From the IMG/VR virus record IMGVR_UViG_3300025853_000180, positions 1-44,126 of that record: a stretch of 44,126 nucleotides of DNA; one strand, 5' to 3'. Position numbers and translations under genes: made by a program. Origin of the DNA: a virus. The notes under the pieces were generated by a model. It did not search any database and was not told the DNA's origin. It saw only the letters and a program-made list of their open reading frames with translations. Positions 8,501 through 34,749 of this stretch are shown in pieces. Numbering within the stretch: position 1 is the first letter of the stretch; each line of letters begins with the position of its first letter.

Positions 8501-11500
8501 CTGAAATAGATGATTTAGAACAAACCTTGTTAGCCGAAGCAGTAAATCAAGCAAAAGACAAACAAGAACTTAAAAAGATAAAAGACAAACTTAAAAAAAC
8601 TGCAAAAAATAAAATACAAGAAGAAAATATTAAGCTTGACCAAGCAGCTATAAACAAAGCCATAGATGAGATGAGCATAGACTCAGATATAGATTCAGCT
8701 ATAGATATTATAAATGAAATACCAGCGGCAGTTAATCCATTCAACGTAGCTATAAACGAAGCATTTGAAAGCAGAGGTGATGAACAAGATGTAGTAAAAA
8801 CTATTGAGGATGCCTTCTCTGACGGTTCAGAAAATGATGTTCAGTATTTAATAAGAAAGAATGAAAATGATACTGTTGGACTTATAAAAGAATTAGAAAA
8901 TTATATAAGTTCTGTAATAGATTTATTAATGGCTCAATTAGAAGAAGCTAAGGCAAGCGGTGATACACAAGAAGTACAAAGAATTAACAATAACATTGGT
9001 GCATATGGAACTTTAGGGTCTATATTAAATAAACTAAAATCAGTTCCAGGTATGAAGGCGCTATCAACAGTTGTTCTACCAGAAAAAGAATATATTAATA
9101 TATTTAGTAAATTTAGAAGAGTAACCAAAGAAGATAAAAGCAACTCTGCTGGATTCTATACTCCTTCTGGAAAAACATACAATGAGATAGTAAAAATTTT
9201 TGGTAAAGTTGTAAGTGTACCTGTTAAGTATGATGTACCAGGAGCAAAATACGATCAACGAATTGTTTTAAGAAAATCAAACGGTCAGTCTACTTACCGG
9301 ACTCTAAAAGTATTAGTCCATGAACTCACTCATGCGGCTACAGTAGACGGTATGATAAATATCATGACTGACTCAGAGCAGGTGGCGTTAAGTAGAATGC
9401 TTGAATCAGCAAGACGAGAAGCATTTAATAGAGGTGAATACACAACAGATAAAGACGGAAAAATTGAATATGATCTATATGGGCTTTCTGATCCTTTTGA
9501 ATTTATAGCAGAGGCATTTTCAAATCCACGTTTTCAAAAATTCTTAACAGAAATACCTAGTATTGAGTCTCAAGGGTACCGTTTACCAGAAGAATCAAAT
9601 ATATTTAAATCAATGTTTGACACTTTTACTGAATGGGTATCAGAATTATTAGGGTTAGGAAATATAGATAATACTTTATTAAAAGACACTTTTAGAGTAT
9701 CAGAAAGACTATTCAATGCAGGTATGGCTCCTAATGTAAAATTTGAACCAGAAAGGATGGAGGTGTGGAAGAAAAAACAAAGGTTTAGAAACTACACAAA
9801 CAAGTCTAGAAAGCCACTACCTCCAGGTATGCGTGCATTATTAAAAGCAATGTATCCTGAAAACTCAATACACCCTAGTATTAATGAAGATAAAAAGTCT
9901 TCGATGAGCGACGACAATATAAAACTTGTATCAGAAATAGTTCGTATAAAAAGTAAGCAACGCCCTAGAAAAACTTTAGATGAAATTCAAAATGATAATA
10001 TTAAATTATATAAAGAACAAACAAGAAGTTCAGGTAATAGGTTAAAAAATTCATTCTCAAGATTCTTTAAGAACGGCGATGAAGGTTTAACTAATGCTAT
10101 AAGAAATTTTGCAAATAGATCAATTGATATTAAAAAGTTACAAGACAAACTAGAAAGGTCTGGTTTACTGTTAGCTGGTGTAGAAGGGTTTAACAATGTG
10201 TTTGACCAACTAACTAGAGCATTTGGTTTATCTGATTTTTATATGAAACAACTTCAACCTTCTATGGATAACTATTCTAATTCATTAGGAGAATATTTAA
10301 AACTACAAGAACAACGAGGTCTATCAGAAGAAGATGCAAAAGGTATACTAAAAACAATATTTACTGGTTTACACGAAGGCGAACGAAGAGAAGTAAAATA
10401 TCTACTAGATGTACCTCTAAGTAATGAAAAAATAATAAAAAAAGGTAATACTACAACAAGTCCTTCTGAGCTACGGGCGGAGATAATGAATGTTATCACT
10501 ACTAAAGTATGGAAGGATAGCAAACAAAAAATAGCTGATTTAGAAAAATATAAAAATATGCTTAGAAGATTAGCTAATCCCAATACTAGATTTTCAGGTA
10601 AATTATCTATTGATAGTGTAGCAGGGGTAAGTTATTTCTCCAATAAAAAAGGAGGTCCAGCAGATATAACTAATTCTAGGTACAACGTTTCTGAAATGTC
10701 ACATGAAGATGCTAATGCCGAAAGACAAAAGTTTGAAATTTTAAAGAACCGTGATCCTGAACTATATAATGTAATAAATAAATTTAGAGAGTCTATGGAT
10801 GTAATTAATAAAGAGACTTTGAGACTAAACCAAGAAGCAAACTACGCTAGTCCTCAAGCACTTAATATAATTCAATTCTATGGATGGAAGAACTATATAC
10901 CATTTAAAAAAAGCAATAATTGGGATTATGATTCAACTTCTGAAAGCTTTTATAATCCTACAGGTGGTAGGCTATCAAGAGAATTAAAAAAATTAGAAAG
11001 TTCGTTTGAAGGTAATGAAGGAGAAACTTCAGATCCAATAGTTCAGGTAGTGGTAGATGCGTCTAGAGCCGCTGCAAGAGCTGGAAGAATTAATTATACA
11101 CAATCTATCTATAATGCAGTTACTCAAACTGTAGAATATACAGACCCTATAACAGGTAAACAAAAAAGAGGTAAAGCTATAGATGGAAAGGTTTTAAATA
11201 TATATTCTTACGAACAACGATATACAAATGATGAGGGGTTACAAAAAGACATAGAAAAGAAAAATACTGTCTTACATTTCCTAGACGACGGTAGTATTGC
11301 AGTAATAGAAATAAAAGATGAAAAATTAGTAGAAGCAATTAGAGGTTCTTATGCAGATAATCCTCAATTTGTAGCTTTCATGAATAGAATGACAGGATTC
11401 TTAGGTCAATTACATACTAGATTCAATCCTCCTTTTGCAACCTTAAACTTTGTTCGAGATGCTATAACAAACATATTTTATATTAGTGCTGATCTAGGCA

Positions 11501-16253: not shown

Positions 16254-16565
16254 CTATAATATATCAGTTTTAATTGAACTCAAATAACTTTCCGCATTTT
16301 TTAAACCTTGTGCGGGTAAAGCTTCAGAATTTAGATCGTCCTTTATTTTTTTGATAAACTTTTGTATCTTAATACACTTTTCTTCTCGGATGTAACTTCC
16401 TCGAAACCATTTATGAACTGCCATTCTAGATACCCCAAAGAATCTAGCAATACAAGCCGCTGGTAAATGTGCATCAACGCATGCCTTTGCTAACTGTATG
16501 CCGACTCTTTCAGGGTCTGAATTTGACAGTTTAATTAAAAACTTTGCACTGTAAGGTCTAGCCAT
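16254..16565 (-). CDS. Helix-turn-helix DNA-binding protein
   Basis: 103 residues from the ATG at 16565, which overlaps the upstream stop as TAATG; an in-frame ATG six codons earlier is possible but would intrude further into the upstream gene. A helix-turn-helix is visible at about residues 34-58 (PAACIARFFGVSRMAVHKWFRG), the second helix reading VSRMAVHKWF like Cro/XRE-type recognition helices. Flanks are basic (KIQKFIKKIKDD). It could be the phage repressor or activator, or an accessory replication factor given its position directly before the primase-helicase. It is one of the few encoded candidates to bind the palindromes found at 25-34 kb. Confidence 0.75.
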   Translation of the reverse strand: MARPYSAKFLIKLSNSDPERVGIQLAKACVDAHLPAACIARFFGVSRMAVHKWFRGSYIREEKCIKIQKFIKKIKDDLNSEALPAQGLKNAESYLSSIKTDIL

Positions 16566-17425
16566 TAGTCTTTCACTCCCCATTTGTCCATGATATCTGT
16601 AATATCTTTTGCTTTCTCTGCTTTAGCTTGAGCAACTACTTGAGGCTCTTCTACTTCATCAGCTTCCACTGTTGGTTTAGTAGTCTCTTGAGTAGCACTG
16701 CTTGTATCAGATTGATATACAGTCATTTTAATTGCTGACTCAGCCGCTGGACTCTTAGATTGTTTTTGTAATAACTCAACATCTTCAGGTTGCACAGCCG
16801 CAATAGGTGAGAATAGTAGTTTAGGTACAGAAGACTTAGCATCAAACTGCATACGAGTAACAACACGACCAGCACTTACATTGTTATTAGCTAGCATTTG
16901 AATATATGGTCTGAATGGATACTTACCGTTCTGTTCTTTACCAAAAGCAGATGTAGCCGGCAGCACCATCTGTAATACATCACCTGATGGATCATTAGGT
17001 AACACTACAGCTATACGCCAAGACAGTCTGCATGCAGAACCTTGACCGCCCATACCTGAACCTTTTACGCTTTGAGGGCATTCATTACAAGACTTAGCTT
17101 GTGGGTTCTCAACTTCTGAATCAGGATTGTTTGAATCACCTGACCAACATGCTGGTGATACTCTTTCACCTTCTTTGTAAGTAGATGCATAGTAAGTTCT
17201 AGCCGCTGTATGAGCCATCTTAACGATAATTACATCCATATAGTTCTCTTCAACTGTAGCAACTTCTTTACCATTGACTACCTTATGAAAGTTTTTACCT
17301 CTAATAGAGATTCGTTTACTACCACTGCCAGTGTTACCACCAGCAACGGCAAGGGTATCTTCATCTAACCCTGTTTGAACAATAGCTGAATTGTTCTGAA
17401 TAATATTTGCTAATTCATTAGACAT
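16565..17425 (-). CDS. Candidate single-stranded-DNA-binding protein
   Basis: 286 residues. A central region, about 35-215, contains a conserved Cys pattern (CWSGDSNNPD, KSCNECPQS, ACRLSWR) and several beta-strand-like stretches, the layout of phage proteins usually annotated as hypothetical or ssDNA-binding and found next to primases. The C-terminal 50 residues are acidic and low-complexity and end in ITDIMDKWGVKD, comparable with the acidic tails of SSB proteins that recruit partners. Position between replication genes supports the call, but I see no diagnostic OB-fold motif, so the name is tentative. Its stop overlaps the HTH gene start. Confidence 0.45.
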   Translation of the reverse strand: MSNELANIIQNNSAIVQTGLDEDTLAVAGGNTGSGSKRISIRGKNFHKVVNGKEVATVEENYMDVIIVKMAHTAARTYYASTYKEGERVSPACWSGDSNNPDSEVENPQAKSCNECPQSVKGSGMGGQGSACRLSWRIAVVLPNDPSGDVLQMVLPATSAFGKEQNGKYPFRPYIQMLANNNVSAGRVVTRMQFDAKSSVPKLLFSPIAAVQPEDVELLQKQSKSPAAESAIKMTVYQSDTSSATQETTKPTVEADEVEEPQVVAQAKAEKAKDITDIMDKWGVKD

Positions 17426-24492: not shown

Positions 24493-24753
24493 TCAATCTT
24501 CGCAATTGCCGCCGACACAAAACTTTCCGCTAAGAATCTCATTAGCGATATCATCACTAACCATCTTACGTTCTTCTTCTTCAATCTCGTGTTCTAGGTG
24601 TTCAATAAACGCTTTGTTTTTAATTAATACATTTAGTTCATCAATAATATCTTGTGCTTCTTCTGCATGTTCATCACCGATACTATGTTTATTTAAGACC
24701 TCGACGTGGTTCTCAAGAAGCCTTTTCACTCGCATAAAAATATCATCACTCAT
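24493..24753 (-). CDS. Small acidic helical protein (86 aa)
   Basis: 86 residues, acidic, with a predicted helix or coiled coil throughout (EEAQDIIDELNVLIKNKAFIEHLEHEIEEEERK) and a Cys pair at the C-terminus (FCVGGNCED). Start overlaps the DUF3310 gene by 8 bp. No family recognised. Confidence 0.5.
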   Translation of the reverse strand: MSDDIFMRVKRLLENHVEVLNKHSIGDEHAEEAQDIIDELNVLIKNKAFIEHLEHEIEEEERKMVSDDIANEILSGKFCVGGNCED

Positions 24754-24988
24754 CAGCCTTCTCCTTTAAATAATCTTCAAGTTCTTTTGCATACCATATA
24801 ATCTTACCTACATCATTAATCATATCTTCGTCATGTCCCTTGTATCCTAGACGTGTGATATATTTAATAATTGTGCCACGCAGATATCCTATGTATTCTT
24901 CCATAGTTAATTTAGAACGAATTACCTTGATAGTCTCAATACCTTTTTTGTAATGAGGTGGTTGGTTTACGATATCAACTTCTGACAT
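24746..24988 (-). CDS. DUF3310 protein
   Basis: 80 residues. VNQPPHYKKGIETIKVI, then MEEYIGYLRGTIIKYITRLGYKG and DVGKIIWYAKELEDYL, is the DUF3310 pattern (VNxPxHY...IE...YL.GxxIKYLxRxxxKG...DxxKaxxYxxxL), common in phages and sometimes called nucleotide kinase-like without firm evidence. The gene has a strong AGGAGG, and palindrome copy 1 lies 16 nt upstream of its ATG. That placement is the start of the palindrome-associated gene set. Confidence 0.78.
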   Translation of the reverse strand: MSEVDIVNQPPHYKKGIETIKVIRSKLTMEEYIGYLRGTIIKYITRLGYKGHDEDMINDVGKIIWYAKELEDYLKEKADE

Positions 24989-24998
24989 AAATCCTCCT

Positions 24999-25322
24999 TT
25001 ACTGACCTGACATGATGTCAGGTTTGAAATTGAATGTTTGCTTACCCCTGATGTAAAACTCTAGCATATCTATGTTGGTTTCGTCAATAACTAAAGACTT
25101 ACCCCCTGATACACTGATGTCTCGTAGATGTTTTTGTTGAAGTGCGGTGGGTTTGTTTCCGTTGGCTTTGCATTCTATACCTATAAATATTCCTTGATAA
25201 CAAGCAATTATGTCAGGCACTCCGCTAGAACCATATCCCCCTGTTGATGGCATACAGTAGTAGCAGTCTAATTTATTTAAAATTTTTTTAACTTTTTCTT
25301 TTACTTTTTTCTCTGGTGTCAT
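24999..25322 (-). CDS. VRR-NUC domain nuclease
   Basis: 107 residues from the ATG at 25322 (AGGA 6 nt upstream). TGGYGSSGVPDIIACYQGIFIGIECKANGNKPTALQQKHL is the VRR-NUC fold signature: the PD, then ExK (ECK), then Q (QQKHL) motifs of the PD-(D/E)XK-like family used by phage Holliday-junction or structure-specific nucleases. The last residues (KPDIMSGQ) are encoded by palindrome copy 1, an unusual overlap of a coding end and a regulatory repeat. Confidence 0.8.
   Translation of the reverse strand: MTPEKKVKEKVKKILNKLDCYYCMPSTGGYGSSGVPDIIACYQGIFIGIECKANGNKPTALQQKHLRDISVSGGKSLVIDETNIDMLEFYIRGKQTFNFKPDIMSGQ
25005..25023. repeat. Palindrome copy 1 (centre TGA)
   Basis: ACCTGACATGATGTCAGGT: arms ACCTGACA and TGTCAGGT around TGA. 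It encodes the end of the VRR-NUC protein and lies 16 nt upstream of the DUF3310 start, just before AGGAGG. Read on the minus strand the centre is TCA. Confidence 0.85.
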
Positions 25323-25665
25323 TGTTGTCCTGTAATCCAACTAATTCTAATAAGTTATCAATAGGTAATACAACTGTGTAATTACTATCCGAAACTCTCC
25401 AAGCAGTTTCTTCTTCACCGTTGTCATTAAAGATATAAAAATGATATGGCTCTACATCATCATCAGATATTTTTGTTAGATATAAAGCATTTGCGAATGT
25501 TAATTTTGATTTGATATATGATGGTAGGGTATCCGATGTGAATACCCTTTTGAAGTTTTTTAATAGATATACAATATACTTACCATCATCAGTATGTTGT
25601 ATTGGCACTTGGTAATAAGATACCAAGTTTGGGTGTGGTTCAGGCTCTAAGCCTATATAGTTCAT
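25288..25665 (-). CDS. Protein of unknown function (125 aa)
   Basis: 125 residues with beta-strand-like stretches (YIVYLLKNF, PYHFYIFND, YTVVLPIDNL) and a charged C-terminal tail. The 3' end overlaps the VRR-NUC start. No family recognised. Confidence 0.5.
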   Translation of the reverse strand: MNYIGLEPEPHPNLVSYYQVPIQHTDDGKYIVYLLKNFKRVFTSDTLPSYIKSKLTFANALYLTKISDDDVEPYHFYIFNDNGEEETAWRVSDSNYTVVLPIDNLLELVGLQDNNDTREKSKRKS

Positions 25666-25675
25666 TCATACCTTT

Positions 25676-26749
25676 CTACTCTTCAAGAAATAGTAACTCA
25701 CTTAGTTTGTGGTTGCTATATCCTGTGTCAGATTGTCTTGCAATTACTTGTAAGTCTTCTGAGTATAAACTATCTTGACTGTTTATGTCAATAAAGTATC
25801 CATGATGAACCTCTCTATGTCCATATGTAGTCGCTTCTTTTATCAAGTCATCAACTGTAAGTTTCCACATAGACATTACACCTGACAGTTCTTCGAAAGA
25901 TGGTAGCTTAGTTACATCACCTGTTGATATAATATTTGATAGTATGTCTACCTTTGGCTCAGTGTCAGCATCAAATATCTTCATGGTATATTCATAGAAA
26001 ACATTTGAACCTAACAGATTACCAATCACTTTAATATTTTTGTCAAATATCTTTAGCTTACCTTCAACACCTTCTTGAATGGCTTGTTGATGGTTTTTAA
26101 TTTCTTGTAGTTTTTGAAGTCCTAGGTTAAAAGTATGTTGAGGTAGTTTATCTTGAGTTTTAAGTGCTACTGCAAGTATCTCACCTAAGACATGTCCATT
26201 CATATATACATCATTTAATTTTTTACTTTCTTTTTGTAAGTCTACAATATGATTCACAAGATTCTGCACTCTTGTATTACCCCAACCACCACGATTTTTA
26301 GACTCAGGATAATTAAGCACGTCATTTTTTATATTATCAGGTAAGCCTTTTCTATTTTCAATATTTTTAATTATACTCTTTAAGTGTTTACTTGTTATAG
26401 TGTGCATATTGCCACGTTCTTTGATTCTCTTTGGTGAAGTAAACCCATAGACTGATTCACTTCCGTCAGAGTGATAATATATGTAGTATGTTGGCATATT
26501 ATCTATCCCCATAACCACTGCTCTTTTTTTATTATCAGACTTTACGTTGTAATTTGGACTATCATTACCCCACGACATAGTCATAGGTATGTAATCCATG
26601 ATTTTGTGATTGTGTTTAGCATTCAATGTATAAGCTAGTTCAAACACTTCATCTCGTTTCACCTGTTGTATAATTTCATCACAGTTATCTCTGTCCCCGA
26701 TACACGAATGAAATACTTTTTCGTTTTGTTTAAATAGTTCTGTTGTCAT
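25676..26749 (-). CDS. Protein of unknown function (357 aa)
   Basis: 357 residues from the ATG at 26749, which overlaps the upstream stop (TAATG) and follows AAAGGAA at good spacing; an in-frame ATG at 26770 lies inside the upstream gene. It is mixed alpha/beta and polar, without membrane segments or recognisable catalytic motifs. Notable stretches are MTMSWGNDSPNYNV, ESKNRGGWGNTRVQNLVNHIVDLQ and TTYGHREVHHGYFIDIN. It lies in the palindrome-bearing operon among small genes, so a host-takeover role is possible but unsupported. Confidence 0.55.
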   Translation of the reverse strand: MTTELFKQNEKVFHSCIGDRDNCDEIIQQVKRDEVFELAYTLNAKHNHKIMDYIPMTMSWGNDSPNYNVKSDNKKRAVVMGIDNMPTYYIYYHSDGSESVYGFTSPKRIKERGNMHTITSKHLKSIIKNIENRKGLPDNIKNDVLNYPESKNRGGWGNTRVQNLVNHIVDLQKESKKLNDVYMNGHVLGEILAVALKTQDKLPQHTFNLGLQKLQEIKNHQQAIQEGVEGKLKIFDKNIKVIGNLLGSNVFYEYTMKIFDADTEPKVDILSNIISTGDVTKLPSFEELSGVMSMWKLTVDDLIKEATTYGHREVHHGYFIDINSQDSLYSEDLQVIARQSDTGYSNHKLSELLFLEE

Positions 26750-27000
26750 TACATATTCCTTTCTATACATTCTTGTTCTGTCTTAATATAAACAGTGCTT
26801 GATGGACTAGCCTGTTCATACACCTTATCTCTTTTACACAAATACTCTATCGGTTTATCATATAAAAAACTCATATACATCAGATAACCTTTGTGTCCTG
26901 CCATACCGAAAAAAGCACCCAACGCAAACCAAAACAACAATGTGAAATAGTCTGCGTATTCTCTTTCTATAATTACTTTGTGTCCTCGAACGCTACTCAT
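26749..27000 (-). CDS. Small single-pass membrane protein (83 aa)
   Basis: 83 residues; the start ATG overlaps the upstream stop (TGATG). About residues 17-37 (ADYFTLLFWFALGAFFGMAGH) form one hydrophobic membrane segment, followed by a polar C-terminal region with two cysteines. It could anchor at the host inner membrane. No family recognised. Confidence 0.55.
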   Translation of the reverse strand: MSSVRGHKVIIEREYADYFTLLFWFALGAFFGMAGHKGYLMYMSFLYDKPIEYLCKRDKVYEQASPSSTVYIKTEQECIERNM

Positions 27001-27275
27001 CACTTATTCTCCTCAGTGTTATATTTCCCTAGAAAGTCTAGGGCATCAATTGCCTCGTATGCTAACTCTTTATCAGTCATATGATTCCACCCCTTTCCGT
27101 TATAACCATTTGCCCACATATCAATTAGCACTTCTTTTATGTCGCTCGGACTAGCATTATCTATCCAGTCTTCCTCAAACTCAATAAGAGCCTCAATCAG
27201 TTCTTCTCTGGTAAATCTAGCTAATGTCTCAGCTACAATATAATCTTTATCACAATCCATTAGTGCTTGTGTCAT
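27000..27275 (-). CDS. Small acidic protein of unknown function (91 aa)
   Basis: 91 residues, acidic, mostly helical (TREELIEALIEFEEDWIDNASPSDIKEVLIDMW, ELAYEAIDALDFL). The start overlaps the neighbouring stop by the ATGA form. Acidic helical proteins of this kind in phages often mimic DNA or bind host proteins, which is only a possibility here. Confidence 0.5.
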   Translation of the reverse strand: MTQALMDCDKDYIVAETLARFTREELIEALIEFEEDWIDNASPSDIKEVLIDMWANGYNGKGWNHMTDKELAYEAIDALDFLGKYNTEENK

Positions 27276-27427
27276 GATGGTATCTCCTCTGCTTGAAACT
27301 CAGCATCATGCACTTCCCACGTTGTTTCTTCTTGTGCTTTTAAGATTGCTTGGTCTTCTGTTTGTGCAAACACTGTAATAGGTTTGCAGTATTGTGTTAT
27401 GTTTACTCTATATACTTTATTCTTCAT
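27272..27427 (-). CDS. Small protein of unknown function (51 aa)
   Basis: 51 residues from the ATG at 27427, which has AAAGGAG 9 nt upstream; the earlier ATG at 27460 would overlap the previous gene by 44 bp. The pattern VYRVNITQYCKPITVFAQTEDQAILKAQEE resembles small phage proteins with a beta-strand followed by (A/T)xExAxxKAxE. Unknown role. Confidence 0.5.
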   Translation of the reverse strand: MKNKVYRVNITQYCKPITVFAQTEDQAILKAQEETTWEVHDAEFQAEEIPS

Positions 27428-27692
27428 AAGTAGGTTCTCCTTTTGCGTAGTCGTCATCATCTAATAGTTCATTAGCTGGTATACCATTATGCGGTTGTGG
27501 TTCGTCCCATGAACCTCTTACAAAACCCAATAATACATGAGCGGGAACCCACTTTAGTAATGATTTTAAGCCATCACCATCACCGCAAGATACTTCGTTC
27601 TCTAATATATTTACCACTGTATCAAATAGACTTTCATTATTCATCGGTTTGTAATTACTATAATGATTATCAAATTCTCTTATTTTAGGCAT
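27417..27692 (-). CDS. Protein of unknown function behind palindrome copy 2 (91 aa)
   Basis: 91 residues, acidic at the C-terminus (NELLDDDDYAKGEPTYEE), with a central hydrophobic helix (LLKWVPAHVLLGFVRG). Start is supported by AAGGAG 8 nt upstream. Palindrome copy 2 lies 18 nt upstream of the ATG. No family recognised. Confidence 0.5.
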   Translation of the reverse strand: MPKIREFDNHYSNYKPMNNESLFDTVVNILENEVSCGDGDGLKSLLKWVPAHVLLGFVRGSWDEPQPHNGIPANELLDDDDYAKGEPTYEE

Positions 27693-27707
27693 CTCAATTC
27701 TCCTTTT

Positions 27708-28898
27708 CTAACCTGACACCATGTCAGGTTCAAGTTCTTGTTTGACAACTTTGCAGTTATCAGGAATATACTCTTCTGATTCTGTTGAAACAAACAATGT
27801 CGGTGTAGATATATTCCACTCAGGCTTATTAAAGAAGTGTCCATCGGTGAACACAATGATAGCCTCAGAATTTATCTGATGTTTGTTTATATAATCAGTG
27901 ACACAATTAATCTCAGTACCCCCTCCACCTTTTGGTTTCAGTAGTTTATTAATCATGTCATACTGATGTGGTAGAAACTCTTGCTCACCATGCACCTCAG
28001 TATCCCACCACAAAACTCTGATTTTTTCAGGGACAGTTACCGAGCAGATTGAAACCAGTTCTGACGAGAACGCATTAAGTTCACGCTCACCGATAGATGC
28101 TGACGTATCAACTGCAATAGTCAACTCACCGACTGCCTCATCTTCTACGCTTGGCATGTATATATCATTAGCGACAAGTCGTTTGTTGTACCTTCGCCAT
28201 GTATATTCATCAGTGCCTCGCATGTGTGATGTAATGAATTCTCGCAAGACATCTTTCCAATCTACCTTCGGTGCGAGTAACTTGGTTATCTGTCTCGGAA
28301 CACTACCTCCCATACGTCCTGCTAGTATGCTACCCTCACGCAAGGCTCTATCAATTTGCCCTGATAATTGTTCCTGTTGTTCAGCAGTCATAGGTTGACC
28401 ATTCTCATCTGTTACTTCATCGTCAAAGCCATGCTCGTCCATGCTACTCTCAGGTTGTTGACCATCTTCATCTTTCTTCTGTCGTAAGTCGTTCATCACT
28501 TCTCGGACAGACCAGTCGTGATACTTCTCATCATACAAACCACCCTTAGGTAATTTGAGAAATGTTTTGTCCGCTAGGTTACATATCACATCATTTACAA
28601 CATAATCTGCTGATGCGTTACATAACTGTGGGTCTTCTTTCCACTCTGCTTTGAATCGTTGTATGTGTTTCAATGCAACGTGTAAGTTCTCATGAAGTAT
28701 CAATGCTCGTAATTCCTCATCGGATAACTTCGATATAAACTCTCTACCATACATCTTGTTCATACCATCGGTGTAAGCAGTAGGGCAATCATCAACAACT
28801 TTACTCTCGCCCATCATAATCACACCTGAATACAAAGCAGTCTCAGGATGTTTCATCAAAGCAATATGTGCTTTCTTGAGTCTTGTTTCTTGGTTCAT
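27708..28898 (-). CDS. VWA-domain protein with N-terminal metallopeptidase-like domain (DUF2201-like)
   Basis: 396 residues. The N-terminal half holds HENLH at 69-73, in the pattern of DUF2201-type putative metallopeptidase domains, with downstream NASADYVVND as further conserved residues. The C-terminal half is a von Willebrand factor A domain with MIDAS motif DTSAS at 264-268 and a later GGGGTE and FTDG. In bacteria such proteins pair with MoxR AAA ATPases, as here with the gene just upstream, and act as remodelling or chaperone modules; the phage target is unknown. The last seven codons come from palindrome copy 2, and copy 3 lies 13 nt before the ATG. Confidence 0.82.
   Translation of the reverse strand: MNQETRLKKAHIALMKHPETALYSGVIMMGESKVVDDCPTAYTDGMNKMYGREFISKLSDEELRALILHENLHVALKHIQRFKAEWKEDPQLCNASADYVVNDVICNLADKTFLKLPKGGLYDEKYHDWSVREVMNDLRQKKDEDGQQPESSMDEHGFDDEVTDENGQPMTAEQQEQLSGQIDRALREGSILAGRMGGSVPRQITKLLAPKVDWKDVLREFITSHMRGTDEYTWRRYNKRLVANDIYMPSVEDEAVGELTIAVDTSASIGERELNAFSSELVSICSVTVPEKIRVLWWDTEVHGEQEFLPHQYDMINKLLKPKGGGGTEINCVTDYINKHQINSEAIIVFTDGHFFNKPEWNISTPTLFVSTESEEYIPDNCKVVKQELEPDMVSG
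27711..27729. repeat. Palindrome copy 2 (centre CCA)
   Basis: ACCTGACACCATGTCAGGT. It codes for the end of the VWA protein (EPDMVSG followed by TAG formed at its edge) and lies 18 nt upstream of the next start codon. Confidence 0.85.
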
Positions 28899-28911
28899 AT
28901 TAAATTCTCCT

Positions 28912-28930
28912 ACCTGACATAGTGTCAGGT
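28912..28930. repeat. Palindrome copy 3 (centre TAG)
   Basis: ACCTGACATAGTGTCAGGT, located between the stop of the MoxR gene and the start of the VWA gene; the VWA Shine-Dalgarno AGGAG begins directly next to it on the minus strand, 13 nt from the palindrome to the ATG. Confidence 0.85.
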
Positions 28931-29992
28931 TTAAAATAGTTCGTTGTTGTTCTTAGCCCAATCTTTAACTTCTTCATTACCTCGTGCAAGTCTGATGGTG
29001 CGTTTGTTACGAACCAACATGGTAAAGAATATAGCTTGAATCTCGGCTGACTTCATACGTTTGATATACTTCATAAACTCAGACAAGTCGTCTTGTGTTT
29101 CTAGCTTATCAAGTGCATGGAACATGAGTATCAACTGTGCTGATATTTCTTTGGGTATCTCAACAGTATCAGGCGATTGTAGTATGTCGTCCATGTTAGG
29201 TAATGATTTCTCTAACGATAGGAACGCTGACATGTCGGCTGATGCACTTGCACCCAATGTACCTGTCAATGCTGACATTGTGGCTACCTCTCCTAGTATG
29301 TCTCGGTTTTCCACAATGACTGATGACTTGGCAAGAGAACGTGGTGAGACGAAACTCAACTGTGTTTTCTTAGGGTTGAAGATGTAAGGGTTGTCTGTCT
29401 CATTGTCATCTAAGTAACTCTTAAGACATCGTGGAAACATGTGAACCCATGCTCGTATCAAAGCACTGATGTTATTATTCGTAGCCCATGCTAACCATTC
29501 CTCTGTTGTAGGCTTAGCCATTTGCAAGATACAAACTCGGTTAGATGCGTGAGCCATCATAGTATCACCAACTCCGTCTGACTGATTGTTTGATGTGCCA
29601 AACACGATACTGCCTTTGGGTAGTGGTGTATCACCTATGAATCTCTCTAGCATTAGTCTAGTAAAGATAACCTGTAATAGTTTCGGTGCTTTCATAAACT
29701 CGTCAAGTAGTATGACTTTTGGTTTCGGTGAATCTAGTTTGAACAATGAACCAACGTAGGTTTCAAGTGTTCGTGTTTCATGGTTAGGAATAGTCATAGC
29801 TATGTCTTGCATATCTTTGACAGGGCAATCAACATAGATGTAATCGTATCCATCACCCAAGTCTTCCTCAAGCATACCGAGCAGTGAAGTCTTACCAACC
29901 CCAGGCTCGGACTGAATGATTGGTGTTAAGTCTTTACCGATTGTCGGTATAAGTTTGCGTAGTTCATTAATTGTTACGGTTTGTGTGTGCAT
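28931..29992 (-). CDS. MoxR-like AAA+ ATPase
   Basis: 353 residues from the ATG at 29992, which is preceded by GAGGAG; an in-frame extension upstream would run through palindrome copy 4. Walker A is EPGVGKTS (residues 29-36), Walker B VILLDEF, with a GTSN sensor-1 stretch, all as in MoxR ATPases. Partners are the VWA/metallopeptidase gene downstream and the DUF3150 gene upstream; the three are collinear, each preceded by a palindrome. MoxR-VWA pairs usually remodel or metal-load a client protein. The client here is unknown. Confidence 0.87.
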   Translation of the reverse strand: MHTQTVTINELRKLIPTIGKDLTPIIQSEPGVGKTSLLGMLEEDLGDGYDYIYVDCPVKDMQDIAMTIPNHETRTLETYVGSLFKLDSPKPKVILLDEFMKAPKLLQVIFTRLMLERFIGDTPLPKGSIVFGTSNNQSDGVGDTMMAHASNRVCILQMAKPTTEEWLAWATNNNISALIRAWVHMFPRCLKSYLDDNETDNPYIFNPKKTQLSFVSPRSLAKSSVIVENRDILGEVATMSALTGTLGASASADMSAFLSLEKSLPNMDDILQSPDTVEIPKEISAQLILMFHALDKLETQDDLSEFMKYIKRMKSAEIQAIFFTMLVRNKRTIRLARGNEEVKDWAKNNNELF

Positions 29993-30013
29993 ATCGTTCT
30001 CCTCGTTTATGCA

Positions 30014-30032
30014 ACCTGACACCATGTCAGGC
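30014..30032. repeat. Palindrome copy 4 (centre CCA)
   Basis: ACCTGACACCATGTCAGGC, one mismatch at the last base of the arm. It lies between the DUF3150 stop and the MoxR start, 21 nt from the MoxR ATG. Confidence 0.85.
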
Positions 30033-30950
30033 TTAGAATGAAAATTTAGATAGAATGTCGTCAATGTCTGTCTTCACTCTATCTCGTGTATAGTCGCTCT
30101 CTCGTAGAGCCTCAGTAGAGACACCCTGTAGGACATCATCTAATTGTCTTGCAACTGATACAAGTTTACGACTATGTTCGTTGTCTACATATTTGAAACC
30201 ACTTATCGCTCGGCAAAGGTCTTTCGCTTTCTCGATGGTGCTATCATAGATTTTACGTTTCTTAGTCGTTGTTCTTCCGCTCTTGGTAGTAACCTCGTGC
30301 GTTCCACAACAGTGTGCGATACTCTCCATGACATCTGTGATTCTTTCTGTTTGTTGATGTAATACATTCTTAACTATCTCCTCGCATTGTCTTTGGTAAT
30401 TAATCTTCAGGTCGTCAGCCAAATCCTGTGCAACTTGACATCGAAAGTCTTGTTGTGGCACTTCGGATATGTATAGCCTACAACCAAACTTTGCTTTGAC
30501 TTCTTCGACACTCGGATAGTCTTCTGCGTTATACATATCACCCTGTGCAAAAGCCATGTCTGATTTAATAGTGTCATATCTGTTACAGAAGTCTTCTAAC
30601 AGTTTGTAAAACTCTGTCTGGTGCTTGTCATACTCTTGTTTAAAAGATTCTAAGCTGATAGTAGGTAACAAGTCTTGCGAATTGTTCCATCGGTATGTCT
30701 TAGCTTTCAACCAATTGTAGATTGTCTGTCTGTAATTGATTAGGTCTTTGTGATAGACATTGTTTGCAAGTAGATTCTTAACGAACCGCCCTGCATTACT
30801 GTCTGCGTTTTTAGACTTCGTTACCTCTGATGAGATACCTCTGTCTTGTTTTGTTGCTGACCAAACATTCACATCAACTGAGACTAACACTGCTGATGTA
30901 GCTAGTGATGTTAAATGATTCGGTGCTTTAAGTTCTATATCATTGTGCAT
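30033..30950 (-). CDS. DUF3150-like protein
   Basis: 305 residues. The N-terminus (LTSLATSAVLVSVDVNVWSATKQDRGIS, then AGRFVKNLL) matches DUF3150, a family that in phages and bacteria is typically adjacent to MoxR and VWA genes. The remainder is helical with Cys-rich and basic stretches (CCGTHEVTTKSGRTTTKKRK). It is the first gene of the long leftward operon from the promoter at 31043-31071, with Shine-Dalgarno GGAG; palindrome copy 5 is 22 nt upstream. The function is unknown; it may be the third component of the MoxR/VWA unit. Confidence 0.75.
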   Translation of the reverse strand: MHNDIELKAPNHLTSLATSAVLVSVDVNVWSATKQDRGISSEVTKSKNADSNAGRFVKNLLANNVYHKDLINYRQTIYNWLKAKTYRWNNSQDLLPTISLESFKQEYDKHQTEFYKLLEDFCNRYDTIKSDMAFAQGDMYNAEDYPSVEEVKAKFGCRLYISEVPQQDFRCQVAQDLADDLKINYQRQCEEIVKNVLHQQTERITDVMESIAHCCGTHEVTTKSGRTTTKKRKIYDSTIEKAKDLCRAISGFKYVDNEHSRKLVSVARQLDDVLQGVSTEALRESDYTRDRVKTDIDDILSKFSF

Positions 30951-30972
30951 AATAGTTTCTCCAAAAAAGTGA

Positions 30973-30991
30973 ACCTGACATAGTGTCAGGT
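30973..30991. repeat. Palindrome copy 5 (centre TAG)
   Basis: ACCTGACATAGTGTCAGGT in the 5' leader downstream of promoter 31043-31071 and 22 nt before the DUF3150 start codon. Confidence 0.85.
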
Positions 30992-31042
30992 CCGTAAAAG
31001 AAAAATAGTATCATTTAAGATAATATTTCAGTTTCTATATAT

Positions 31043-31071
31043 AGTATACCACAAGTTTACTAATTTGTCAA
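31043..31071 (-). promoter_or_regulatory. Near-consensus sigma70 promoter for the DUF3150-MoxR-VWA operon
   Basis: On the minus strand TTGACA (31071-31066), a 17-bp spacer containing TTAGTAAAC, and TATACT (31048-31043). This is one base off the ideal hexamer pair at ideal spacing. The leader of about 85 nt carries palindrome copy 5 and the Shine-Dalgarno. About 60 bp around it is nearly repeated at 32002-32062. Confidence 0.75.
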
Positions 31072-31100
31072 GTAATATACAATTAAGTGATACAGTATTT

Positions 31101-31277
31101 TTAATCAAAGTCTCCTTTCTGAGCAAACTGCTCTATCTCTTGTAAAAATAATTGAGCGTCATCATCATACATGCCCAACTCCTTTTCAGTCGTAACATCA
31201 CTTACCCCTGAATCTTTTTTCATTCGTTTCCTATTTTCTAGTATAGTCAACAAATCCTTACTGTTTGTGATACTCAT
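31101..31277 (-). CDS. Small protein of unknown function (58 aa)
   Basis: A 58-residue frame whose ATG overlaps the upstream stop (ATGA). Polar and acidic at the C-terminus (MYDDDAQLFLQEIEQFAQKGDFD). It is the last gene of the short operon from the promoter at 32016-32044. Translation is supported by the coupling; function is not known. Confidence 0.5.
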   Translation of the reverse strand: MSITNSKDLLTILENRKRMKKDSGVSDVTTEKELGMYDDDAQLFLQEIEQFAQKGDFD

Positions 31278-31480
31278 TTAATAAGTCCCCCTTTGTTGTT
31301 GATGCCTTTCAGGTCATCGGTTCTTGTAAACAACATGTAGTTTGACTTGTGCATTGGTGCAACACAATGCTTTATCTTGTTCGCCTCAACCTCACCACAA
31401 TCAAGACAAGTCTTGAAACCTAGCTTGGCTCTATCGCTAGAGAATTCATTACCACATGAATAACATACTGTTTTACTCAT
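31274..31480 (-). CDS. Small zinc-ribbon protein (68 aa)
   Basis: 68 residues from the ATG at 31480 (a TTG two codons earlier is possible; AGAGGGG lies upstream). The zinc ribbon CYSCGNEFSSDRAKLGFKTCLDCGE carries the CxxC ... CxxC ligands, and the C-terminal HKSNYMLFTRTDDLKGINNKGG has the conserved context seen in small phage zinc-ribbon proteins related to DksA-like fingers. It may bind RNA polymerase or nucleic acid; not demonstrated. Confidence 0.6.
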   Translation of the reverse strand: MSKTVCYSCGNEFSSDRAKLGFKTCLDCGEVEANKIKHCVAPMHKSNYMLFTRTDDLKGINNKGGLIK

Positions 31481-31727
31481 ATTCAACCCCCTCTCTTACT
31501 CCGTCCGCTATGATTGATACCATCTCGGATACATCAGCGTGTTCAATATAATGTTCAATCAACTCAATGATTGCGTATCGTTGTGCCGTCAACATCTCAT
31601 CTGCCCCTGTTGACCGCATCAACACCTTGTATGTCATCTTAGCTTTGTCGGCTAGTGTAGGACAGTTAGCCTCAACCTCGTTGACATAATATTGATATGC
31701 TTCATCTTCTATGCTCGGTAGGCTCAT
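31473..31727 (-). CDS. Small acidic protein of unknown function (84 aa)
   Basis: 84 residues, helical and acidic (PSIEDEAYQYYVNEVEANCPTL at the start, EHADVSEMVSIIADGVREG at the end). It lies 2 nt downstream of the membrane-protein gene and overlaps the zinc-ribbon gene. No family recognised. Confidence 0.5.
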   Translation of the reverse strand: MSLPSIEDEAYQYYVNEVEANCPTLADKAKMTYKVLMRSTGADEMLTAQRYAIIELIEHYIEHADVSEMVSIIADGVREGVEYE

Positions 31728-31729
31728 AG

Positions 31730-31921
31730 TTATATCCCTTTCTGAACGAAGTGAATTAGCATGACGATACTAATTAGTAACACCACAACTAAGAACACCA
31801 TGATATAAGATAATAATAAGTCAACCTTTCTTCTACGTTCTTCCATCAGTAGGAAGTCAGGTACTGTGCTACGATACTTTCTTAATCTTTTCTCTAAGTT
31901 TTCTAACTCTTGTTTGTGCAT
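31730..31921 (-). CDS. Small single-pass membrane protein (63 aa)
   Basis: 63 residues. The N-terminal half is basic and helical (ENLEKRLRKYRS, MEERRRKVD); about residues 37-58 (LLSYIMVFLVVVLLISIVMLIHF) form one hydrophobic transmembrane helix. Shine-Dalgarno AGGAGAG precedes the ATG. It heads the operon from the promoter at 32016-32044, with palindrome copy 6 24 nt upstream. The topology is compatible with a membrane anchor or early host-modifying peptide. Confidence 0.6.
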   Translation of the reverse strand: MHKQELENLEKRLRKYRSTVPDFLLMEERRRKVDLLLSYIMVFLVVVLLISIVMLIHFVQKGI

Positions 31922-31945
31922 GATTCTCTCCTAGTTAAAATCATA

Positions 31946-31964
31946 ACCTGACACCATGTCAGGT
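31946..31964. repeat. Palindrome copy 6 (centre CCA)
   Basis: ACCTGACACCATGTCAGGT in the leader downstream of promoter 32016-32044, 24 nt before the start codon at 31921. Confidence 0.85.
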
Positions 31965-32015
31965 CGTAAAAAGTAAATTTAAGAAATTCTGAATAATTTT
32001 TCAGTCTCTATATAT

Positions 32016-32044
32016 AGTATACCATAAGTTTACTAATAAGTCAA
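32016..32044 (-). promoter_or_regulatory. Sigma70-like promoter for the 31.1-31.9 kb operon
   Basis: On the minus strand TTGACT (32044-32039), a 17-bp spacer with TTAGTAAAC, and TATACT (32021-32016). Its surroundings are a near copy of the promoter at 31043-31071. Predicted transcription start near 32009. Confidence 0.72.
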
Positions 32045-32237
32045 GTAATATACAATTTAGTGACACACTAAATATATTAGGGTCTGCGAAATCTCAGGTT
32101 CGTAGTTCATATTTAGGGTACTTTTTCTAGTTTGAGTAGCTTAGAAACACGGTTGTTAGTATGTGTATGATGTAAGATATTATTAGATGACGTGTAGTTT
32201 TATGAGCTGGTGTTGTTTGGTGTGGGTTGTAAAGTTA

Positions 32238-32722
32238 TGTTCCAAATCTTGTTCCACTCAAAGTTTACTAAAGGAACAAAGCTAAAAATGGAACAAGATT
32301 ATGTTTGTTCCAAATCGGTGTTGTATTATTAGTAAAGACTAGGTTAATATAAGATGGTGTTAGAATTCGTAAGTGCTTGATTTATAAGGTTGTTCCAATG
32401 TTCTGCGTGTTCTAAGTTTACTAAAGGAACAAGATTGAGGGTTTTGCAAAGAGCTAAGTTATTGTTTTTATTATATATTATATTATATAGTTATTAGTTA
32501 GTTAGTGTTTTGTTCCAATGTTCCAGTGGTTTTGTAGGACGACGTGGGTTTTTGCACTTGCATATCAAGACGAACGATGTCTAAAAAGTTTACAAACTAG
32601 CATATCATGTCAAAAATAAGTGGAACATTGGAACAAAGTAGCTTAACCTCTTGATTTACAAAGTAAAATCATGTTCCAAACTTCGTTTACAAAGTGGAAC
32701 AAAGTCAAATCGAGTGGAACAA
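32238..32722. repeat. Dense TGTTCC/GGAACA repeat cluster, putative replication origin
   Basis: Fourteen TTCC(A)-type sites are visible, seven as GTTCC (starting near 32239, 32251, 32308, 32392, 32512, 32520, 32673) and seven as GGAAC (near 32273, 32290, 32426, 32622, 32630, 32696, 32716). Three times GTTC(C/T) and GGAAC face each other around GTTTACTAA or GTTTACAAA (32251-32277, 32408-32430, 32673-32700). TTTGTTCCAATGTTCCA (32509-32525) has an exact inverted partner at 32621-32637. An AT-only-like tract lies at 32461-32500. Iteron-like sites beside an AT-rich tract suggest an origin; experimental support is absent. Confidence 0.6.
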
Positions 32723-32744: not shown

Positions 32745-32763
32745 ACCTGACATAGTGTCAGGT
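32745..32763. repeat. Palindrome copy 7 (centre TAG)
   Basis: ACCTGACATAGTGTCAGGT at the left edge of the first copy of the duplicated non-coding module; no gene start lies downstream on either strand. Confidence 0.85.
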
Positions 32764-32871: not shown

Positions 32872-32890
32872 ACCTGACACCGCGTCAGGC
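32872..32890. repeat. Palindrome copy 8 (centre CCG, degenerate)
   Basis: ACCTGACACCGCGTCAGGC: the right arm carries two differences from the consensus arm, the most divergent copy. It opens the second module unit. Confidence 0.8.
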
Positions 32891-32954: not shown

Positions 32955-32990
32955 AAAAAAATACCCTGACCACGTTGCATGGTCAGGGTA
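32955..32990 (-). terminator. Intrinsic terminator of the 244-aa gene
   Basis: Perfect 11-bp stem TACCCTGACCA / TGGTCAGGGTA (32990-32980 with 32972-32962) with a 7-nt loop, followed on the minus strand by a run of T (opposite A at 32955-32961). It lies 23 nt beyond the stop codon at 33014. The stem core CCTGACC...GGTCAGG resembles the palindrome family. Confidence 0.88.
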
Positions 32991-33013: not shown

Positions 33014-33748
33014 TTACTTGAGAGGTAACGGATAGGCATCTAGCCAAGCTACTAGTCGTTTATTTTGACCGGCATCTAGCTCTAGGTTTTGCATAGCCTT
33101 GCGGTAAGCGATGGTCTTCTTAGTAGCCTTCTCAAGTTCAGAAGGCTCATCAACCAAGATACCAAACTCTTTACCAAACTCTCTTGCAATTTTAGTCATC
33201 TGCCTACTGTATGCAGTATCAACAGCGTTGGCAAACTTCTCTTTATGCGGTTGGCAGATTTCTTTCCATGATGGACCGCGTGAGTCCATCGGGTTTTTAT
33301 TCACACCAGCCTTGTTAGGCACTAGAGCAAGAGCCTTGTAATCTTGCTTATAGAGAAAAGCCATGTCAAAAGTTTCCCATTTATCTTGCTCTAATGAGAA
33401 GCCTTCCTTACTAGCCTTAACTTCAATCATGTCTTTGGTATAGTAAGTATTGCCATGCAAGTATAAAGTGATACGCCAATCTTTATACTCTTTGCTCTCT
33501 AGGCATCCTTCCATATTACCTTCTTTGATTTCTGCCTTAAGTTCTGGCAGGTTATCGCAAGTAGATTTTGCTAACTCTTTCCAATCTGCGAGTTCCTTAG
33601 CAGATTTGGTTTTACTCTTAGGGGTTAAGCCCATAAGAATTTTAGCTTGGTCGACCATCGCATTGTTACTTGCATCGTTAGCGATAACTTCATTTTTAGC
33701 ATTTTGTTTAACTGTTGCTAAAACAGCTTTCGATAGGATATTTTCCAT
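33014..33748 (-). CDS. Protein of unknown function, separate transcription unit (244 aa)
   Basis: 244 residues, mostly helical at the N-terminus (residues 1-90, Lys/Asn/Ala-rich), then a beta-rich middle (YKDWRITLYLHGNTYYTKDMIEV) and a basic C-terminal part (RQMTKIAREFGKEFG, LEKATKKTIAYRKAMQNL). It has its own promoter (33846-33874) overlapped by palindrome copy 9, a leader with a second inverted repeat, a good Shine-Dalgarno AAGGAG, and its own intrinsic terminator. Such solitary regulation next to a putative origin suggests a regulator, initiator or dominant early protein, but no domain is recognised. Confidence 0.6.
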   Translation of the reverse strand: MENILSKAVLATVKQNAKNEVIANDASNNAMVDQAKILMGLTPKSKTKSAKELADWKELAKSTCDNLPELKAEIKEGNMEGCLESKEYKDWRITLYLHGNTYYTKDMIEVKASKEGFSLEQDKWETFDMAFLYKQDYKALALVPNKAGVNKNPMDSRGPSWKEICQPHKEKFANAVDTAYSRQMTKIAREFGKEFGILVDEPSELEKATKKTIAYRKAMQNLELDAGQNKRLVAWLDAYPLPLK

Positions 33749-33845: not shown

Positions 33846-33874
33846 AGTATAGTAAACTTTATTTTACTAACCTG
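33846..33874 (-). promoter_or_regulatory. Promoter of the 244-aa gene with palindrome over -35
   Basis: A good -10 (TATACT, 33851-33846) follows GTTTAC. At 17 bp upstream the -35 position reads CAGGTT, a poor hexamer that is part of palindrome copy 9. This arrangement suggests a promoter that needs, or is blocked by, the factor that binds the palindrome. Confidence 0.5.
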
Positions 33875-33888
33875 ACATAGTGTCAGGT
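33870..33888. repeat. Palindrome copy 9 (centre TAG)
   Basis: ACCTGACATAGTGTCAGGT, extended by one base on each side (A and T). It overlaps the -35 position of the promoter for the 244-aa gene, the only copy with such placement. Confidence 0.85.
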
Positions 33889-34197: not shown

Positions 34198-34749
34198 ATG
34201 ACCCCTATAAAAGTAGAAGCACCCCTAAACGAGTACGAATACAGCCATTTAGCTATACAGATGTTGGCTGATGATAGTATATTTCCTTGGTATTACCATG
34301 CATCAACCGCTTATCGTGACAATGAGGGAGCTGAATCCCTGTATCAGTTCGTACACGTAGCCTATAAAGATGGTAATATGAACACCAACCATTATTATTT
34401 TAGTATTGTGATGCGAATTATAGAAAAAGCAGAGCAATTATTAGGTAAACAACTAGAAATCTACCGAGCTAAATTTAATTTACTTCCAAGACAACCTCAT
34501 AACGAAGATGATTTAGAAAAAGCAATACATACAGATATAGACGAAGAAGGGTATATGTCAATTATTTATTATATAGAAGATTCAGATGGGGACACAGTTA
34601 TATATAATAAACATCAAGAAGAAAAATATAGGTTCACTCCAAAAGAAAACACAGGTATTATATTTAAAAGTAATACTTGGCACCGTGCAACACCGCCAAC
34701 AAAAAATAAAGCTAGACGAGTTATAAATATAATTGCTAAAGTTCTTTAG
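34198..34749 (+). CDS. 2OG-Fe(II) oxygenase, prolyl-hydroxylase-like
   Basis: 183 residues. The HxD motif is HTD (His111, Asp113), the distal His is His162 in NTWHRATPP, and Arg173/Arg174 in KARRVINI would anchor 2-oxoglutarate. The order matches the double-stranded beta-helix oxygenases similar to P4H that are frequent in marine phages and have unknown substrates. It stands alone on the plus strand, with a promoter whose -10 is 6 nt before the ATG and no clear Shine-Dalgarno, and it ends 14 bp inside the oppositely oriented SprT-like gene. Confidence 0.82.
   Translation: MTPIKVEAPLNEYEYSHLAIQMLADDSIFPWYYHASTAYRDNEGAESLYQFVHVAYKDGNMNTNHYYFSIVMRIIEKAEQLLGKQLEIYRAKFNLLPRQPHNEDDLEKAIHTDIDEEGYMSIIYYIEDSDGDTVIYNKHQEEKYRFTPKENTGIIFKSNTWHRATPPTKNKARRVINIIAKVL

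Follow-up and report, generated by a model that had tools for sequence, protein, structure and literature searches.

Palindromes repeated across the early operon of an uncultured phage are probably DNA operators whose sequence type follows the operon's first gene

The window, a 44,126-nt stretch of DNA from an uncultured, probably marine phage, contains a short palindrome in nine copies, and six of these are located just 5′ of gene starts. Our sequence comparisons suggest, with a probability of about 0.62, that these dyads are double-stranded DNA operators distributed across one early operon, that they are read by the product of the first gene of this operon, here called Reg, and that they act as roadblocks. 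Many relatives carrying the same cassette of MoxR, VWA and DUF3150 genes possess a palindrome family of their own at the matching places. The palindrome sequence differs from lineage to lineage, and the sequence type of the dyads follows Reg.

A search of the window for ACCTGACA-N3-TGTCAGGT, allowing up to three mismatches, yielded 10 matches, compared with 0.13 expected from dinucleotide shuffles, and nine of the 10 are genuine dyads (Table 1). All six palindromes listed in the preliminary description of this DNA are real, with exact distances to the start codons, and the three cassette genes are each headed by a dyad, as had been claimed (copies 4, 3 and 5 for MoxR, VWA and DUF3150, respectively). 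The total of six was too low, as copies 7 to 9 had been missed. Copy 9 occupies the expected −35 position, immediately 5′ of a TATACT −10-like element, and the promoters ahead of copies 5 and 6 are duplicated and close to the sigma70 consensus.

Table 1. Dyad copies, promoters and genes in the window (positions are those of the window).
Feature	Position	Strand	Remarks
Dyad copy 1	25005..25023		ACCTGACA TGA TGTCAGGT; 16 nt before DUF3310 gene; within 3′ end of ORF 24999-25340
Dyad copy 2	27711..27729		18 nt before ORF 27417-27692; within 3′ end of VWA/DUF2201 gene (27708-28898)
Dyad copy 3	28912..28930		13 nt before VWA/DUF2201 gene; adjoins MoxR stop codon
Dyad copy 4	30014..30032		One terminal change; 21 nt before MoxR ATPase gene; adjoins stop codon of DUF3150-like gene
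Dyad copy 5	30973..30991		22 nt before DUF3150-like gene; 51 nt 3′ of −10 box of promoter 31071-31043
Dyad copy 6	31946..31964		24 nt before ORF 31730-31921; 51 nt 3′ of −10 box of promoter 32044-32016
Dyad copy 7	32745..32763		Perfect; noncoding leader region
Dyad copy 8	32872..32890		Two changes; noncoding, downstream of Reg gene
Dyad copy 9	33870..33888		Perfect; ~122 nt before Reg start, at Reg promoter
Sigma70-type promoter TTGACA-17-TATACT	31043..31071	-	Upstream of dyad copy 5
Sigma70-type promoter TTGACT-17-TATACT	32016..32044	-	Upstream of dyad copy 6; within 78-nt duplicated promoter module
Reg, 244-aa protein, proposed trans-acting factor	33014..33748	-	First gene of early operon; fast-diverging
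MoxR-type AAA+ ATPase	28931..29992	-	phrog_1297
DUF2201 metallopeptidase/VWA protein	27708..28898	-	
DUF3150-like protein	30033..30950	-	
DUF3310 protein	24746..24988	-	Last dyad-headed gene
Small YdaS-like HTH protein	16254..16583	-	Candidate dyad specificity factor, rejected

Among the relatives, about 18 dyad sequence types were found in all, each 16–20 bp long, with arms of 6–9 bp and spacers mostly of 2–4 bp, and repeated 3–12 times. An exact dyad with 7-bp arms occurred at least three times in 31 of 78 loci (Markov shuffles, 0). In whole-genome scans, the dyads were restricted to the early operon, with a wrong-spacer control giving 0–0.3. Across relatives, 86 dyads precede a start by 6–49 nt (median 21), and 20 dyads are located inside long ORFs. 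In several types, sigma70-type promoters are located about 40–77 nt upstream of dyads, and the first dyad adjoins, or lies just 5′ of, the −35 box of the Reg promoter. Dyad positions are orthologous across types, for example in the VWA gene, and the dyad sequence changes in a coordinated fashion at all sites of a genome; between the relatives G018 and G019, the dyads are swapped within otherwise near-identical VWA-gene sequence. The proposal that the palindrome is a shared regulatory site is well supported.

The automatic search also returned loci without a dyad family, five of which show a weaker dyad by eye before DUF3150. The pelagiphages HTVC027P and HTVC023P, as well as 023Pt_psg01 and DSL-LC04, are akin to the window phage via their terminase, and the 50 kb examined contained no repeated dyad family. 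A blastn search of the region at the DNA level against isolated phages gave no match, and bacterial genomes scanned for DUF3150-like and MoxR genes contained no relative.

The window Reg has matches in four of the four long relatives with the same dyad and in none of the 23 others. Reg similarity was detected in 30/30 same-dyad pairs versus 52/321 different-dyad pairs, a contrast partly confounded by overall relatedness; one trio of genomes (G018, G019 and G022) provides the only clean control. Within this trio, G018 and G022 share a dyad and their Reg proteins are 76% identical, whereas G018 and G019 have different dyads and no detectable Reg similarity, with flanking genes mostly 85–99% identical (about 90% elsewhere). 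Reg is not alone in this, as the giant ORF and a few further genes of the trio likewise diverge or do not permit a comparison. It also counts against Reg-read operators that, for the ACCTGACA dyad type, Reg identity falls to about 27–34% with the dyad unchanged. About a dozen of the natural dyad types have an identified Reg protein.

Two HTH proteins had been suggested as binders of the palindrome. The small YdaS-like HTH protein, conserved in 17/17 long relatives, is excluded as the specificity factor because it is 98–100% identical in G018/G022 and G019, whose dyads differ. The second candidate is Reg, which does track the dyad type but has no recognisable HTH. Members of the Reg family are basic proteins of 190–260 aa, with a pI of about 9 in most cases, and the AlphaFold2 model of the window Reg has a pLDDT of 81. 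Reg had no match in Pfam, PHROG or PDB sequences, structure searches of PDB and BFVD with two Reg models gave no match, and no similarity to any repressor was found in the libraries searched. The lack of a known DNA-binding domain and of a fold match counts against Reg-read operators. No lysogeny gene or integrase was seen among the proteins scanned on this incomplete contig, so that any classical immunity would be hypothetical.

The preliminary description had preferred an RNA role, in which a phage protein, possibly Reg, would bind a transcript hairpin by the Shine-Dalgarno, or the hairpin would alter ribosome access. Most copies are indeed in transcribed leaders adjoining the Shine-Dalgarno, and the hairpin is predicted to fold in all six leaders; in these six folds, the Shine-Dalgarno lies outside the stem and is not covered by it. 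The three arm deviations in the window are all G·U in the transcript, so that the imperfect copies retain pairing, but this pattern is not repeated in relatives: core deviations across all types comprise 35 A·C, 14 G·U and 54 others. Covariation of the arms across relatives had been named as a check, and no compensated double change was found in the dyad cores of any type. For the 32 distinct sites of the window dyad type, pairing was 88.7%, compared with a shuffled mean of 90.1%, and 486 of 500 shuffles were at least as high. Replacement of arms between relatives is equally expected of a dimer-bound DNA dyad and thus does not discriminate RNA from DNA. The arms are fixed (about 1.6 bits), whereas the spacers, corresponding to the loops of an RNA hairpin, vary freely and are the least conserved part (0.1–1.2 bits). 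The dyad-to-start distance also varies widely, as given above. The absence of covariation, the free spacers, the lack of a preference for G·U, and the copies within coding sequence and against −35 boxes argue for a double-stranded DNA site and make an RNA switch unlikely. The earlier reading is therefore partly supported, in that the regulatory site is retained and the RNA preference is not.

The dyads could alternatively be operators for an activator or a promoter-organising protein, or sites of DNA architecture or replication control, and not roadblocks. The dyad at or just 5′ of the −35 box of the Reg promoter has an activator-like position, and the repeat-rich noncoding region between Reg and the operon could be an origin. 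However, the gene-preceding dyads sit downstream of promoters, others lie within ORFs, and in some cases the Shine-Dalgarno follows the dyad at a distance of one base, so that a transcription start site would not fit between them; we regard this alternative as quite improbable.

It is very improbable that the dyads are DNA-hairpin promoters for an N4-like virion RNA polymerase. As in the N4 early promoters (PMC3715699), short stems with a 3-nt spacer or loop are found before early genes, the annotated homologues of the cassette MoxR are mainly in N4-like phages, and a giant virion ORF is present. Nevertheless, the stems are longer and the sites far more numerous than the three of N4, dyads are positioned in coding sequence, and host-type sigma70 promoters precede them. 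By profile, the giant ORF resembles an ejection protein (8vb2), with no match to an RNA polymerase, and no N4-type virion RNA polymerase was found by sequence search of the incomplete contig. Mobile palindromes of the REP/RAYT kind, spread by a Reg-encoded transposase, would account for one gene tied to one palindrome type and changing together with it, but are scarcely credible given that dyads of different types occupy orthologous positions, the VWA gene being one example, and that Reg shows no transposase family or fold.

If the dyads are operators read by Reg, each 16–20 bp site would be bound by a dimer as double-stranded DNA, with Reg itself as the putative binding protein. Bound Reg would mainly roadblock host RNA polymerase at each gene, in the manner of stoperators and at sites 35–70 nt 3′ of promoters and ahead of gene starts, which may lead to early-gene shut-off or dosage control, and the dyad at the Reg promoter would provide autoregulation. 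Dyad specificity may turn over because a phage would gain by escaping the Reg of a co-infecting or resident relative, as in heteroimmunity. More tentatively, Reg could belong to a novel class of proteins that bind specific DNA sequences and have an undescribed fold. Its specificity would have been replaced repeatedly in this phage group, with every site of the early operon switching together and in place, those in coding sequence included; naturally orthogonal regulator-operator pairs would then form a heteroimmunity-like barrier between close relatives.

Among known systems, the nearest are the stoperators of Cluster A and the extended start-associated sequences (ESAS) of Cluster K mycobacteriophages. 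Cluster A phages such as L5 and Bxb1 contain 20–30 stoperators per genome, mostly not associated with promoters; the stoperator consensus varies from one phage group to another and has diverged along with the repressor, which is encoded in the same genome (PMC6550527). The window phage group likewise has many sites, mostly off promoters, near gene boundaries and in one transcription direction. Its dyad type co-diverges with Reg, a putative regulator that may or may not act as a repressor. Stoperators are 13 bp long, lack symmetry and keep a single orientation, whereas the sites described here are symmetric dyads, number about 6–12 per genome within one early operon, and are accompanied by a protein without similarity to the repressors searched. 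In Cluster K, the ESAS are described in the accounts available to us as inverted repeats immediately ahead of gene starts that are conserved within each gene family and have a consensus varying by subcluster (PMC3203893), and their function is still termed unclear (PMC11373665, PMC12699233). Inverted repeats 5′ of starts with a consensus differing between subgroups are found here too. According to the same accounts, ESAS have imperfect 17-bp arms with 4–13 bp spacers, as opposed to the 6–9 bp arms here, and are linked to a 13-bp SAS, which is lacking here (GGGATAGGAGCCC, 0 matches with up to two mismatches); they name no cognate protein for ESAS, whereas Reg is proposed here.

Our findings, if correct, would extend the stoperator- and ESAS-like systems to a third phage group, unrelated to the other two. 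They would also link inverted repeats at gene starts with a named gene of the same genome, a link not reported in the available descriptions of Cluster K. The dyad and Reg types form a data set on the concerted recoding of a regulon with many sites. They may also be a source of orthogonal regulators, with a modelled Reg fold that has no counterpart in PDB or BFVD.

Each of the six palindromes of the preliminary description lies at the position and distance from its gene start reported there, as confirmed by a sequence check. A search of the window allowing up to three mismatches yielded 10 matches against 0.13 expected, nine of them genuine dyads. Three had been overlooked (32745, 32872 and 33870), the last being located at the promoter of the Reg gene (33014-33748), the first gene of the early operon. 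Copies 1 and 2 lie within the ends of the preceding ORFs, copies 3 and 4 adjoin the stop codon of the preceding gene, and copies 5 and 6 each follow a near-consensus sigma70 promoter by 51 nt. A 78-nt promoter module is duplicated (31020-31097 and 31993-32070, 90% identity, 973 bp apart), and both of its copies carry the dyad at equal spacing.

Other elements were noted in this region. The noncoding stretch 32200-32720, with many GTTCCA/TGGAAC and TAGTAAACTT repeats, is a putative iteron-bearing replication origin. On the minus strand, the leader region repeats a conserved element, GATACCAGTT, at about 32812 and 32930; the element is also present upstream of Reg in loci L036, L044, L059, L085, L097, L103 and L065, and is preceded by a terminator-like GC stem in several relatives. 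Directly after the Reg gene, a strong terminator-like hairpin with a T-run (32962-32990) sets this gene apart from the remaining operon.

Relatives were gathered through the MoxR gene of the MoxR/VWA/DUF3150 cassette, giving 80 viral contigs. The window's dyad, ACCTGACA-N3-TGTCAGGT, is present in few of them, and most others have their own family, different in sequence and alike in build: ACCCTAGAA-N2, CGTGGGA-N2, TTCCGTGA-N2, CGTGTCA-N2, TGTCGAAA-N2, TGTCGTAA-N2, AGTCTACA-N3, CCTGTCA-N3, TTCGACA-N2, TTGTAGTGA-N2, TCGTCGT-N6, AAACGGG-N4, GTCGTCA-N2 and some weaker types, those with 5-6 bp arms (TTCACG, AAGCGT, TAGCGT) being less certain. An exact 7-bp-arm dyad occurs at least three times in 31 of 78 loci, against 0 in Markov shuffles. 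Genome-wide scans of the window and nine relatives found sites only in the early region that surrounds the cassette. With one mismatch allowed, 160 sites were counted: 86 precede a start by 6-49 nt (median 21), 20 fall within long ORFs and 54 are elsewhere, upstream noncoding sequence included. Several different sequence types have a site within the VWA gene, about 440-500 nt from its start, so that the encoded linker peptide varies with the dyad type.

Dyads of different types at the matching place inside the VWA gene of relatives
Locus	Position
L079	11530
L082	11684
L075	11512
L078	4979
L091	5408

Annotated isolate homologues of the MoxR ATPase (28931-29992) are mainly from N4-like phages (22-25% identity); despite this, the terminase has its closest counterparts in pelagiphages HTVC027P/HTVC023P and in DSL-LC04. 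A 2574-aa protein (5506-13230) with an LPD38 domain and an HExxH invariant in relatives gave a profile match to ejection protein gp48 (8vb2), and the phage also has genes for an aspartyl/asparaginyl beta-hydroxylase and a 2OG-Fe(II) oxygenase (1624-2334 and 34198-34749).

Two HTH candidates had been proposed as the binder, of which one tracks the dyad. The YdaS-like protein (16254-16583), kept in 17 of 17 long relatives, keeps 98-100% identity even where two phages differ in their dyads and is therefore not the specificity factor. The other, Reg, in which no HTH is recognisable, has matches in 4/4 relatives with the window's dyad and in 0/23 others. Across 28 loci, Reg forms one fast-diverging family of 190-260 aa, with similarity at E<1e-5 in 30/30 same-dyad pairs versus 52/321 different-dyad pairs; median normalised scores for same- versus different-dyad pairs are 0.85 versus 0.04 for Reg and 0.98 versus 0.74 for MoxR. 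Since same-dyad phages are closer kin, the informative case is a trio representing a single switching event, in which G018 and G022 carry TTGTAGTGA and G019 carries TCGTCGT. G018 is equally close to both over most genes; its Reg shares 76% identity with G022 Reg but finds no match in G019. The dyads are exchanged at matching places, one within otherwise near-identical VWA coding sequence, and as the half-sites differ by two bases, about four positions per site changed in concert. In this trio the giant ORF is a possible alternative: it too has diverged between G019 and G022, and the G018 contig does not cover it. A 245-aa gene of the same operon has diverged, but also lacks a match in the same-dyad relative and so does not track the dyad.

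Reg is a basic protein in most members (pI about 9) and less basic in some of the ACCTGACA group, and no match was found among Pfam, PHROG or PDB sequences. AlphaFold2 models of two divergent members were confident (pLDDT 81 and 80), and both run in comparable order from a helix through a beta hairpin, a short helix and a strand to a long helix; Foldseek returned nothing for either against PDB, or for the window's Reg against BFVD.

The dyads are unlikely to be hairpin promoters of the kind known from phage N4 (PMC3715699), since a virion RNA polymerase was not found in this incomplete viral contig. An RNA role, as a hairpin beside the ribosome-binding site, was preferred in the preliminary description for four of the six copies, with compensatory arm changes across relatives named as support. 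Between types, arms replaced in a complementary manner would be seen for a hairpin as well as for a dimer-bound DNA dyad and cannot decide between them; within-type variation can. Pairing was scored over 32 distinct sites of the ACCTGACA type: 88.7% of cells pair, the mean after shuffling is 90.1%, and the real value was equalled or exceeded in 486 of 500 shuffles. Core deviations over all types comprise 35 A.C, 14 G.U and 54 others, with no compensated double changes in the cores (three in a looser count with terminal positions). Information content is about 1.6 bits at each arm position and 0.1-1.2 bits in the spacers, arm conservation being partly a product of search design, and in six predicted leader folds the Shine-Dalgarno remains outside the stem. 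At the Reg promoter the dyad occupies the -35 position in the window, touches the -35 box or sits slightly upstream of it in the TTCGACA and ACCCTAGAA types, and is near it in the CGTGGGA type. Together, these sequence comparisons favour a DNA site rather than an RNA element.

Measured from the -10 box, leader dyads begin about 40-77 nt downstream (roughly +35 to +70). This is too distant for promoter occlusion and suits a roadblock, which Reg bound there would form. A roadblock would also be the simplest reading for dyads inside ORFs and before internal genes, and the position of the dyad at Reg's own promoter would suit autoregulation. Such a system would work like the Cluster A stoperators, described in PMC6550527 as 13-bp asymmetric sites that diverge together with the repressor. 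It looks like the Cluster K ESAS, which are described as inverted repeats at gene starts with a consensus varying by subcluster (PMC3203893) and a role still unclear (PMC11373665, PMC12699233). Because it lacks some defining features of each, we place it apart, as a member of neither. We infer that Reg binds the dyads and acts as a roadblock, and that their turnover may have an immunity-like cause.
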